From an uncultured Flavobacteriales bacterium (GTDB lineage Bacteria > Bacteroidota > Bacteroidia > Flavobacteriales_E > Vicingaceae), in NCBI GenBank assembly GCA_905479995.1, contig CAJQON010000003.1, forward strand, positions 62,001-126,000: a stretch of 64,000 nucleotides of DNA. Reading direction: 5' to 3'. The notes under the pieces were generated by a model, which saw nothing but the letters and a program-made list of their open reading frames with translations, did not search any database and was not told the DNA's origin. Made by a program: the position numbers and the translations under genes. This document shows, in pieces, positions 24,009 through 27,370 of this stretch; position 1 is the stretch's first letter; each line of letters begins with the position of its first letter.

Positions 24009-24718
24009 TTACAAACAAGCCGATTTTACAAAACAAGAAAAGGCTCGAAATGCATCGTTCCAGCCATTTTTCTTCCCTTCCTCATAGGTTCTACCGAAGT
24101 ATGATATACCTACTTCGTAAATTCTAATGTTATTTACCCTAGATAGTTTTGCTGTTAATTCTGGTTCAAATCCAAAACGTTTCTCTTTGAGCTTAAGATT
24201 TTTAACCACATCTGCTTTCATAAGCTTATAACATGTTTCCATATCAGTTATATTCAAATTATTAAACATATTTGACAGAAAGGTTAAGAATTTATTACCT
24301 ACAGAGTGCCAAAAGAACAATATTCGATGAGGCTTACCACCAATAAACCTTGAGCCATAAACAACATCAGCAAACCCGTCCACAATTGGCTTTAATAATA
24401 AATTATATTCTTCAGGATCATATTCTAAATCAGCATCCTGAATAATGAGGTAATCACCTGTTGCTTTCTCAATTGCTTTATGAATAGCAGCACCTTTCCC
24501 CATATTTTTTTTTGGTTATAAAGTGTAATTCCTAGCTCGGGGTTTTTACTAACGTATAATTTTATTACATCCACTGTATCATCTGAAGAAAAATCATTAA
24601 CAATAATTACTTCCTTTGTAATACCTCCAATTAGAGAAACAGATTTAATTTTATCAAGAATTTGGTGTATTGTTTGTGCCTCATTGTAGGCAGGAATTAG
24701 GATTGAGAGCTTCGTTAT
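24009..24718 (-). pseudogene. broken GT2 glycosyltransferase (DPM1-like)
   Basis: The C-terminal frame (24009-24503, 164 codons) starts inside a conserved motif, [12 protein letters not shown], and has [19 protein letters not shown] and the usual GT2 tail. Translating further upstream gives an equally well conserved N-terminus, TKLSILIPAYNEAQTIHQIL and EVIIVNDFSSDDTVDVI, but in another frame. The switch is at a run of nine A on the minus strand (24505-24513); ten would restore one frame. The expected start codon is ATA (24716-24718) and no ATG, GTG or TTG precedes it before a stop. Two lesions suggest a recent pseudogene, unless they are sequencing errors or the A-run is a slippage site. The intact enzyme would be a polyprenyl-phosphate glycosyltransferase. 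Confidence 0.75.
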
Positions 24719-24786: not shown

Positions 24787-25188
24787 TCACCTTAATAGGG
24801 TTACTGATCCTTTATAAGTTTCAATCAATTCAACTCCATCGTTAAAATACCCTATTGTAAAAATATAAAAATACACTCCTCCTGGTACTTTATCACCAGT
24901 ATTAGTTCTACCATACCAAGGTTCACTAATTTGATTAGATTGAAACAACAACTGCCCCCATCGATTATATATTTCCTTTTTCAAACTAGTGATACAATAT
25001 GACTGAACATTAAACCCATCATTATTCATATCCAAATTTGGCGTGAATACGTTAGGTATATTAATTCCCGATTCTATATCAATACCAATGCATTCTACTG
25101 TTTGTGATTTCAATGATAGAGTAGTGCTAAAAAAAATCGTAAAAACTAATAGTTCAAGTTTTATATTATAATCTTTCCACTTCCTCAT
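24787..25188 (-). CDS. small secreted protein consisting of a T9SS type B sorting domain
   Basis: A 133-residue product with an N-terminal signal segment (LELLVFTIFFSTTLSLKSQ). Almost everything after it is the CHU_C/gliding-motility-associated sorting domain: INIPNVFTPNLDMNNDGF, IYNRWGQLLFQSN, WYGRTNTGDKVPGGVYFYIF and the terminal GSVTLLR. Normally this domain is the tail of a large exported protein. Here no cargo domain is present; only about 20 residues separate signal peptide and tail. It could be a remnant, a minimal T9SS substrate, or a competitor for the secretion machinery. It stands alone next to the broken GT2 gene, with a perfect -7 box five bases before its ATG. Confidence 0.85.
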   Translation of the reverse strand: MRKWKDYNIKLELLVFTIFFSTTLSLKSQTVECIGIDIESGINIPNVFTPNLDMNNDGFNVQSYCITSLKKEIYNRWGQLLFQSNQISEPWYGRTNTGDKVPGGVYFYIFTIGYFNDGVELIETYKGSVTLLR

Positions 25189-25193
25189 TAAAA

Positions 25194-25201
25194 CAAAATT
25201 A
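25194..25201 (-). promoter_or_regulatory. -7 promoter box of the small T9SS protein gene
   Basis: TAATTTTG on the minus strand matches TAnnTTTG and ends five bases before the start codon, so the message may be leaderless. Confidence 0.45.
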
Positions 25202-25251
25202 ACTATTTCCGTAGATAGATGAACTGAAAGTGCAACTTTATAAATAAAGAA

Positions 25252-26175
25252 CTACAAATGATTCATTAAATATTTATATAAAGCTACCATATTTTCAATG
25301 TCTTGCTTGTGTACTTTTTCATCGGGTGTATGCACATTATCTTCTGGTGCGCCAATAAAACACCAGTCAAAAGGAAAAGGAGAACGTTGTAATGAGTTCC
25401 CATCACTTCCTCCAGCACTTTCCACTTCTATCTGAAATTTAACGCCACTTTCTTTTGCCAATGCCACAATTTTATTCAAATATGTTCTTCTTGGAATTCC
25501 AGAATCTCGCATAGAAACTGCTACACCATTTCCGTGTTGAACACCTGGTGTAACCCAAGTAATATCAGAAATTAACGCCTGCTGTACTTGATAGTTTTCG
25601 TATAAATACTTGGCCAAATAACCAACACTTCCCCCTCCGTGTTCTTCCCAAGTGGAAAACACTATAGCTCCGTTTTCTAAGGTTTCTGCTACTTTTAAGG
25701 CATTCCAAACACCCAAACGATTATCCATATAGCAACATTGAACAAAGTCGTCTGTTTCTCTAAAATCTGGCTTATATGTCAATGTAGTGGCCCTATCAAT
25801 TTCTCTATTAAAGTCGGCTGAATAGCTTAAAAACTCATGTTCATCTTCTTCCACTTTTAACACAGCCTCTATTTTACCTTGCGAATCTTCTCCAACTAGC
25901 TTTGTTCCTCTTTTTGCTCCTGGACCACCAATTTTAATGAGATTATTTTTATAACCTACCGTATAACCTATAGAGTCTATGTGTGCAAAAATAGCTGTAG
26001 TTGGTTTCCCAAAAACTAAAATTATGTTCTCTTGAAATCCATCTCCAAAAACTATTTTAGGCTGAACTGCCCAATTGCTTTTATGTTGTTCAATAAAATT
26101 CAACAAGTATTCTGTCATGTTCAATTCACTTCCCGAAGGAGCTTCAATTGCACAAAGTTCTTTTAATAATTCCAT
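25252..26175 (-). CDS. M42 family metallopeptidase
   Basis: A 307-residue cytoplasmic aminopeptidase-like protein. Metal ligands of the M42 (glutamyl aminopeptidase/tetrahedral TET) family can be placed: FAHIDSIG (first His and Asp), YMDNRLGVW (bridging Asp), STWEEHGG (catalytic Glu and ligand Glu), ISDITW (Asp) and DNVHTPDEKV (last His). ESAGGSDGNSLQRSPFP is the conserved G-S-D-G loop. These enzymes trim peptides from the N-terminus with two metal ions, usually as dodecamers. It follows dnaN on the same strand but behind a strong terminator, so it is probably transcribed from its own promoter or by read-through. Confidence 0.85.
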   Translation of the reverse strand: MELLKELCAIEAPSGSELNMTEYLLNFIEQHKSNWAVQPKIVFGDGFQENIILVFGKPTTAIFAHIDSIGYTVGYKNNLIKIGGPGAKRGTKLVGEDSQGKIEAVLKVEEDEHEFLSYSADFNREIDRATTLTYKPDFRETDDFVQCCYMDNRLGVWNALKVAETLENGAIVFSTWEEHGGGSVGYLAKYLYENYQVQQALISDITWVTPGVQHGNGVAVSMRDSGIPRRTYLNKIVALAKESGVKFQIEVESAGGSDGNSLQRSPFPFDWCFIGAPEDNVHTPDEKVHKQDIENMVALYKYLMNHL

Positions 26176-26248: not shown

Positions 26249-27370
26249 TTAATTGTTTAACATCACTGGCATTACTAACATTAATACTTCTTCTGCCTCA
26301 TCGTTTTTCTCACAAGGTGTTAGTATTCCTGCTCTATTTGGTGCCGACATTGCAATATTTACTTCTTCCGACTCTAGGTTGGCTAACATTTCAACTAAAA
26401 ATCTTGAGTTAAAACCAATTTCCATGTCTTCTCCTTCATATTGACAAGTTAACCTTTCATTTGCTTCATTGGCAAAGTCTAAATCTTCTGCTGAAATATG
26501 CAATTCACTACCCGACATTTTTAACCTTACCTGATGTGTAGTTTTATTAGAAAAAATAGAAACTCTCTTCACTGAATTCAATAAAGATGTTCTGCTAATT
26601 GTCAATTTATTAGGGTTTTCTGTTGGAATCACAGCATTGTAGTTTGGGTATTTCCCATCAATCAGTCTTGCTGTCATTTTGGTTGATCCGAACACAAACA
26701 TTGCATTTGTTTCATTGTACTCAATGGCAACTTCCTCACCAACACTTCCTAAAATTGCTTTTAATAAGGTTAAAGGTTTTTTAGGCAATATAAAAGAAGA
26801 TGCTTTATCGCCTTTTAAATCTGTTCTTTTATACTTCACCAACTTATGAGCATCAGTAGCTACAAAAGTTAAATCATCGTTATTAATTTCAAAAAACACA
26901 CCCGACATTACCGGTCTCAACTCATCATTACCTGTTGCAAAAAGTGTTTTATTTACTGCATTCGATAATAAAGCGCCTTCAACTTTTATAACAGATGGTT
27001 TTTCTAATTTTGGCGTTTTTGGAAATTCACTTCCGTTGTGTCCGTTTAATTTATATTTCCCAAAATCTGAAGAAATTTCAATTCCAAAAGTTTCTTTATC
27101 AACAGTAAACGTAAGCGGCTGATCTGGAAACGTTTTTAAGGTATCTAACAACAATTTAGCAGGAATAGCAATATCACCATCTTCTTTTGCTTCAATTGAT
27201 ATTTGAGTAGTCATGGTAGTTTCCAAATCGGAAGCAGTAATTACTAACTCACCCTTTTTTATTTGAAATAAAAAATCATCTAAAATGGGAAGTGTATTGC
27301 TGGCATTTAAAACTCCGCCAATTAATTGTAGTTTTTTTAGTAAAACTTCACTGGATACTATAAATTTCAT
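26249..27370 (-). CDS. dnaN: DNA polymerase III beta sliding clamp
   Basis: The 373-residue product has the three-fold DnaN architecture. It begins MKFIVSSEVLLKKLQLIGGV, contains LPILDDFLFQIKKGELVITASDLETTM in domain 1, VMSGVFFEINNDDLTFVATDAHKL in domain 2 and GFNSRFLVEMLANL in domain 3, and ends with the conserved LMLVMPVMLNN. As a dimeric ring it tethers DNA polymerase III and repair proteins to DNA through their clamp-binding peptides. It is not next to dnaA or recF here, as is usual in Bacteroidota. It has its own promoter box upstream and a strong terminator downstream, so it appears to be a single-gene unit. Confidence 0.97.
   Translation of the reverse strand: MKFIVSSEVLLKKLQLIGGVLNASNTLPILDDFLFQIKKGELVITASDLETTMTTQISIEAKEDGDIAIPAKLLLDTLKTFPDQPLTFTVDKETFGIEISSDFGKYKLNGHNGSEFPKTPKLEKPSVIKVEGALLSNAVNKTLFATGNDELRPVMSGVFFEINNDDLTFVATDAHKLVKYKRTDLKGDKASSFILPKKPLTLLKAILGSVGEEVAIEYNETNAMFVFGSTKMTARLIDGKYPNYNAVIPTENPNKLTISRTSLLNSVKRVSIFSNKTTHQVRLKMSGSELHISAEDLDFANEANERLTCQYEGEDMEIGFNSRFLVEMLANLESEEVNIAMSAPNRAGILTPCEKNDEAEEVLMLVMPVMLNN

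Follow-up and report, generated by a model that had tools for sequence, protein, structure and literature searches.

A cargo-less type B sorting-domain gene beside an M42-family peptidase gene and its possible role as a blank T9SS substrate

A sorting domain without cargo next to the M42 peptidase gene

The window, a stretch of 64,000 nucleotides, carries on its minus strand a gene for a cargo-less type B T9SS sorting-domain protein of 133 aa (24787..25188), here called mini. The assignment draws on its reading frame, its profile matches and its positional relatives in three other genomes (G005, G010 and G059). ORF reading gives one intact frame of 133 codons with an ATG start, and the plus strand has many stops across 24787–25188. 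The sorting domain makes up the extreme C-terminus of the protein (residues 42-133 of 133; 24790..25065, minus strand), as judged from profile matches, conserved columns and a structural model. The Pfam family CHU_C (PF13585) matches residues 42–130 over positions 1–85 of its 86 (65.2 bits versus a cut-off of 27, E 6.1e-18), and the NCBIfam profile of the type B T9SS sorting domain, TIGR04131, matches residues 42–133 over its full length (46.5 bits versus a cut-off of 35, E 3e-12). No second Pfam or NCBIfam family was found in mini at E up to 1, and thus no cargo domain.

Residues 1–28 (25105..25188, minus strand) resemble a Sec signal peptide, with a basic start and a hydrophobic core (maximal 11-residue Kyte-Doolittle mean 2.1). 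This segment also has low AlphaFold2 confidence, and it has counterparts in the other minis. Gln at position +1 after signal-peptide cleavage is a habit of Bacteroidota, from which cleavage would be expected before Gln29, leaving about 105 residues. Some 13 residues separate the signal-like segment from the domain and form a short linker with Cys33 (residues 29-41; 25066..25104, minus strand), delimited by comparison of the minis and by the AlphaFold2 model; a passenger or adhesin region is absent. The preliminary description, which read the product as a signal peptide plus a full type B sorting domain with no cargo, is confirmed by the ORF and by the PF13585 and TIGR04131 matches, whereas its signal part is suggested by hydropathy and comparison.

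The AlphaFold2 model of mini, built on eight alignment rows, has a mean pLDDT of 71.5; beyond residue 50 the ten-residue means lie between 76 and 94, and residues 1–31 stay below 50. Its sorting domain is beta-rich with six strands, and the linker contains a strand at residues 33-37 of low confidence. With the model as query, Foldseek found nothing in the PDB at E <= 1e-3. The top rows were streptococcal surface proteases (1.3e-3), followed at rank 4 by the T9SS protein PorZ (5m11, 2.1e-3) and at rank 17 by 8glk_D, a chain of a T9SS substrate complex. Such weak matches fit an Ig-like sorting domain in mini and prove nothing. The best PDB match by sequence is the C-terminus of GhpA (9flp, 6e-9).

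Two positional anchors precede mini on the minus strand: an M42-family peptidase gene (25252..26175, Pfam PF05343), present in 37 of 46 family genomes, and a gene at 26249..27370 that we take, from its sequence, to be dnaN, encoding the DNA polymerase III beta subunit. The names Lon, second GT2 and flippase, used below, are likewise our assumptions. The M42 stop and the mini start are 63 nt apart (25189..25251, minus strand). No terminator-like site was found on the minus strand within this gap, so that co-transcription of M42 and mini is possible. A sigma-70-like match lies just upstream of the gap (25298-25269, minus strand), in a setting where such matches are fewer than in shuffles. A word similar to the promoter motif TAnnTTTG precedes the window mini, as seen by eye, and none was seen before the other minis.

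On the other side of mini lies a split GT2 glycosyltransferase gene. Its C-terminal part occupies 24009..24503 (minus strand, PF00535), and its N-terminal part, in a different frame, extends to about 24720. The preliminary description had called this neighbour broken. It does occupy two frames but gives no impression of decay: apart from the switch, both halves are readily recognisable as GT2, and the frame changes at a 9-base T run (window 24505-24513), one of three runs of at least 9 A or T in the window. The split may reflect a sequencing or assembly slip, a fresh frameshift or phase variation.

Type B domains and PorP/SprF shuttles in the same genome

Type B substrates need PorP/SprF shuttles (PMC12618676), and an adjacent porP/sprF gene of their own is usual for them but not universal. 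The genome from which the window comes (98% complete) has SprA, GldJ and GldK of the T9SS together with 16 PorP/SprF matches, one of them weak. It contains 65 PF13585 matches, 44 above the curated cut-off, in open frames of 74 to 3493 aa. Judged by open-frame length, mini is the only CTD-only gene off the contig ends among the 44 over-cut-off domains; the three open frames shorter than its own (74, 110 and 112) start less than 100 bases from a contig end. The next shortest, on contig C10, has an open frame of 172, an ORF of 167 aa and about 60 residues more than mini needs for signal and domain; a PorP/SprF gene follows it directly, with 73 nt from the domain end to the shuttle match. This 167-aa gene (L096:2049-3479) has a 624-aa ORF before it and a large ORF beyond.

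A shuttle match is found no more than 400 nt away from nine of the 44 type B domains, which by that measure leaves 35 orphans, including mini; no shuttle gene adjoins it. Among the 16 shuttle matches, seven are unpaired. One of these has a type B domain at a distance of 1.6 kb, and another starts 107 bases from the end of a contig. There is an unpaired PorP/SprF-like gene about 130 nt before GldJ (G000:C45:16481-18886) and another about 210 nt before GldK (G000:C37:19883-22214), and both are candidates for a shuttle that orphan type B substrates share. By its domain and genome context mini classifies as a type B substrate, an orphan without passenger, and its export is predicted.

The same locus in related genomes

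We compared the locus across 46 genomes of the family. A search at the level of the order gave the same 46, so the survey covers this family alone. M42 was sought at E <= 1e-60, and the next ORFs within the fetched stretches were listed for all 37 genomes in which it was found, window included. A bare mini is present at the M42 locus in 4 of these 37. It stands directly after M42 in the window, in G010 (128 aa) and in G059 (125 aa), which belongs to another genus, and is the second gene after M42 in G005 (128 aa). At least five loci (G001, G011, G046, G047 and G048) reach a contig end 0.4–2 kb from M42, and the absence of mini is not readable there. G003 has the M42 closest to that of the window (80%), yet is without mini. 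The gene order of G059 matches that of the window (Lon, dnaN, M42, mini, one gene, YfhO-like, GT2, flippase); the gene between mini and the YfhO-like gene differs, being a 538-aa protein in G059 and the split GT2 in the window. A scan of the collection with mini as query gave 48 pattern matches, none of which was confirmed. In the M42 scan, among the best 80 of 250 confirmed loci, mini was found only in L129 and L134, which are G010 and G005 themselves. In G061, two ORFs of 158 and 78 aa make up a split M42 peptidase gene (L122:4040-4851).

Long proteins with a type B domain lie in or adjoin the slot in G005 (731 aa), G060 (970), G006 (823) and G061 (1022), and in G010 one of 1066 aa is placed after mini. 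Those of G005 and G060 both have the order LamG–PKD–CHU_C, and residues 25–731 of the former are 53% identical to residues 269–970 of the latter. As the long LamG/PKD proteins of these two genomes have domains of the same clade as the minis (see below), the dnaN–M42 slot holds loaded or bare versions. In G004, of the same genus, a second bare type B protein of 131 aa is encoded at an unrelated locus (L097:3622-4017). The type B domains of the family genomes were taken from the best matches listed, and further short domains are possible.

Selection on the minis

The alignment of the G005 and G010 minis spans both proteins in full, from the signal peptide through the linker to the domain, with 91 of 128 residues identical, pS of 0.58 and dN/dS of about 0.16. 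Between the same two genomes pS is 0.55 for M42 and 0.51 for dnaN, so the two minis separated at about the same time as the genes that surround them. Their linker is conserved, and the constraint on the signal peptide is weak (pN 0.16, pS 0.35, 22 codons). In a neutral simulation with 0.56 substitutions per site and indels ignored, 0.1% of 2000 frames stayed stop-free. The G005–G010 pair shows the signature of purifying selection.

For the window mini against the other three, dN/dS is 0.19–0.31, a rough estimate, since dS (1.4–2.6) is near saturation. Of the 26 columns whose conservation in 44 other domains is 80% or more, the window copy keeps 24 (the median of those domains is all, the lowest 81%); at the 70% level it keeps 28 of 31, slightly under the median of the other domains (94%). 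Marks of a pseudogene were not seen: the frame is intact, and dN/dS between minis is 0.16-0.31 with dS near saturation. Separate origins of the bare genes would place part of this constraint before the bare state, and hence the case is strongest for G005–G010 and weaker for the window. On these comparisons mini is probably a real gene and protein and not debris.

Domain tree and history of the locus

The domain tree (49 rows, 88 columns, 7 of 46 inner branches starred) contains a ten-row clade with support of 98/92. It unites the four minis, the 731-aa protein of G005, the 970-aa protein of G060 and four domains of another genus; the 131-aa bare domain of G004 falls outside. The four minis come together in 0 of 200 bootstrap trees, and the tree needs 3 changes. 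Neither a single clade of minis (p-AU 0.34) nor a sister relationship of the G005 mini and the G005 adhesin (p-AU 0.55) is rejected.

Between the adhesin stop and mini in G005 we found a 20-nt word identical to the M42–mini junction of G010, M42 end included (0 of 5000 shuffles reach 20). Most simply, a bare gene would have followed M42 in the common ancestor of G005 and G010, and the G005 adhesin would later have come between the two; a tandem duplication followed by losses would explain the pattern as well. The signal-peptide DNA of the G005 adhesin is identical to that of the G005 and G010 minis at 43/69 and 40/69 positions (highest of 300 shuffles 37 and 35), and to that of the window and G059 minis at 30 and 32 of 69 (shuffles up to 38). 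As the likeness is confined to the minis of G005 and G010, kinship of the signal peptides is evident for that pair only. The sorting domain of the G005 adhesin matches the G005 mini at 80 of 104 residues (pS 0.49) and its G060 counterpart at 59 of 106. G010 also has a broken copy of the ten-row-clade sorting domain (57 aa, one stop; L049:5875-6045), just after the 1066-aa adhesin-like gene, which ends in a different type B domain. This copy has the look of a decaying domain and suggests that domains are exchanged at the M42 locus.

A bare domain as a possible blank load on shuttles

In F. johnsoniae, the two shuttles tested were scarce, limiting and stoichiometric, and it is proposed that shuttles and substrates are matched and that shuttles are not recycled (PMC12618676). 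The same source reports one orphan shuttle common to three orphan substrates, orphans being accepted type B members in F. johnsoniae; it also states that the domain alone decides whether a protein goes to the gliding track or to a static anchor. By published accounts type B domains are probably not cleaved, and the CTD of the P. gingivalis type B protein PG1035 is described as uncleaved and bound to PorP (PMC9143113). With an uncleaved type B domain and scarce, non-recycled shuttles, a bare domain would amount to a blank load. The reading that we favour, with a confidence somewhat short of even, is that mini is a genuine, inherited, cargo-less T9SS type B substrate that acts as a blank on a PorP/SprF shuttle. 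Mini would be exported by Sec, carried across the outer membrane by the T9SS and taken up by an unpaired PorP/SprF shuttle. It would then stay parked there uncleaved, so that the site is filled without an adhesin, and the number of shuttles that carry same-clade adhesins would be lowered or levelled. The preliminary suggestion that such a domain might compete for or tune the secretion machine is possible in this form, made concrete by the shuttle limitation that PMC12618676 describes. Against this reading stand the lack of an adjacent shuttle gene, the patchy occurrence of the gene (4/37) and its absence in G003, as well as the roughness of dN/dS near saturation, the failure of the four minis to group in the tree and the slightly low column retention of the window copy at the 70% level.

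The length of mini is a further difficulty for its export. Its roughly 105 residues compare with 150–235 for a working type B signal in F. johnsoniae (PMC12618676) and with more than 200 given for type B signals elsewhere (PMC10202324). Mini might therefore be too short to pass the outer membrane and might act or linger in the periplasm or the translocon, where it could for instance inhibit type B transport. The finding that the five motifs are necessary but not sufficient for shuttle pairing (PMC12618676) also leans this way. However, the natural 167-aa type B protein of the same genome, encoded 73 nt before a PorP/SprF gene, implies that short substrates seem usable, and the 112-aa Fjoh_0547 is reported from supernatants even of sprA and porV mutants (PMC7712824). 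We rate a block at the outer membrane as quite improbable.

Repeated internal deletions in the adhesin genes of the slot could also have left signal peptide and sorting domain as a stub without function, the window copy being one that has not yet decayed. Long proteins with a same-clade domain at the locus in G005 and G060 are in keeping with this, as are the patchy distribution, the failure of the minis to group in any of the bootstrap trees, the truly decaying domain copy in G010, and the signal-peptide DNA of the G005 adhesin, which resembles that of the G005 and G010 minis and not that of the window or G059. We nonetheless consider a functionless stub unlikely, because the minis of G005 and G010 are alignable over their whole length and diverged like their neighbour genes at a dN/dS of 0.16, because the junction copy in G005 most simply puts the bare gene before the present arrangement, and because the window copy retains nearly all conserved columns (24/26). 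The purifying selection on the G005–G010 pair, the retained columns and the junction copy equally count against the alternative raised in the preliminary description, a remnant of a larger gene lost with the broken GT2. So does the bare domain at the same locus in G005, G010 and G059, where no ORF in the fetched stretch best-matches that GT2; these are equally short homologues, of the kind that the description had proposed to look for. It had further named long cargo at the locus in relatives, combined with neutral substitution rates, as evidence against its proposal: long cargo with a same-clade domain does occur there (G005 and G060), but the rates are not neutral. Least probable in our estimate is retention of the bare domain as a recombination partner from which adhesin genes of the slot obtain or swap their sorting domains, with its product secondary. 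The G005 adhesin domain is indeed closer to the G005 mini than to its G060 counterpart, and G010 has a broken clade domain immediately behind an adhesin whose own terminal domain is a different one; yet a frame for future recombination is hard for selection to maintain, and the G005–G010 linker is conserved too, with weak constraint on the signal peptide.

If mini is a blank on shuttles, the blank might moreover be a conserved one. The secreted domain would load shuttles, and thus the gliding track or a cell-wall anchor, and so set adhesin display; it would be a natural signal of about 105 residues, and the dnaN–M42 slot would be switchable between loaded and blank. We hold this fuller proposal to be doubtful; were it true, a type B signal could be about half the length thought necessary. 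The needed length of a type B signal and the fate of a loaded shuttle are T9SS questions, and a signal-only protein offers a ready-made test of both. Export of mini would mean that about 105 residues are enough for a signal, and if it occupies shuttles, bacteria would have a simple way to dilute surface adhesins. The M42 locus also points to an adhesin site where passenger and sorting domain come and go.

Comparison with known systems

Like the type B CTD substrates SprB, Fjoh_1123 and PG1035, mini has a full C-terminal sorting domain above both cut-offs; unlike mini, they have a passenger, and the working signal is the longer one given above (150-235 residues versus about 105). F. johnsoniae already provides one small CTD protein, Fjoh_0547, which at 112 residues is described as having little beyond its CTD and in this resembles mini; it is also reported to leave the cell without SprA or PorV (PMC7712824). 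According to the same source, PorA of P. gingivalis is likewise a small CTD protein (246 aa); in contrast to mini, it has an N-terminal FimH-like domain and acts on PorXY-SigP. Its CTD is not of type B, because PGN_1317 is given there as the sole type B protein of the species. A PorA-like regulatory role for mini was rejected, as mini has no N-terminal FimH-like domain and its sorting domain begins at residue 42. Among the titles and abstract openings listed from open-licence literature, we found no type B protein consisting of signal peptide and sorting domain alone, and within these searches no earlier description of a single locus that keeps a bare type B domain in two genera or of one with bare and loaded versions. 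The 131-aa protein of G004 shares with mini a signal-like start followed by a type B domain only, but sits at another locus and outside the clade of the minis and slot proteins, and thus represents a second, separate bare domain.
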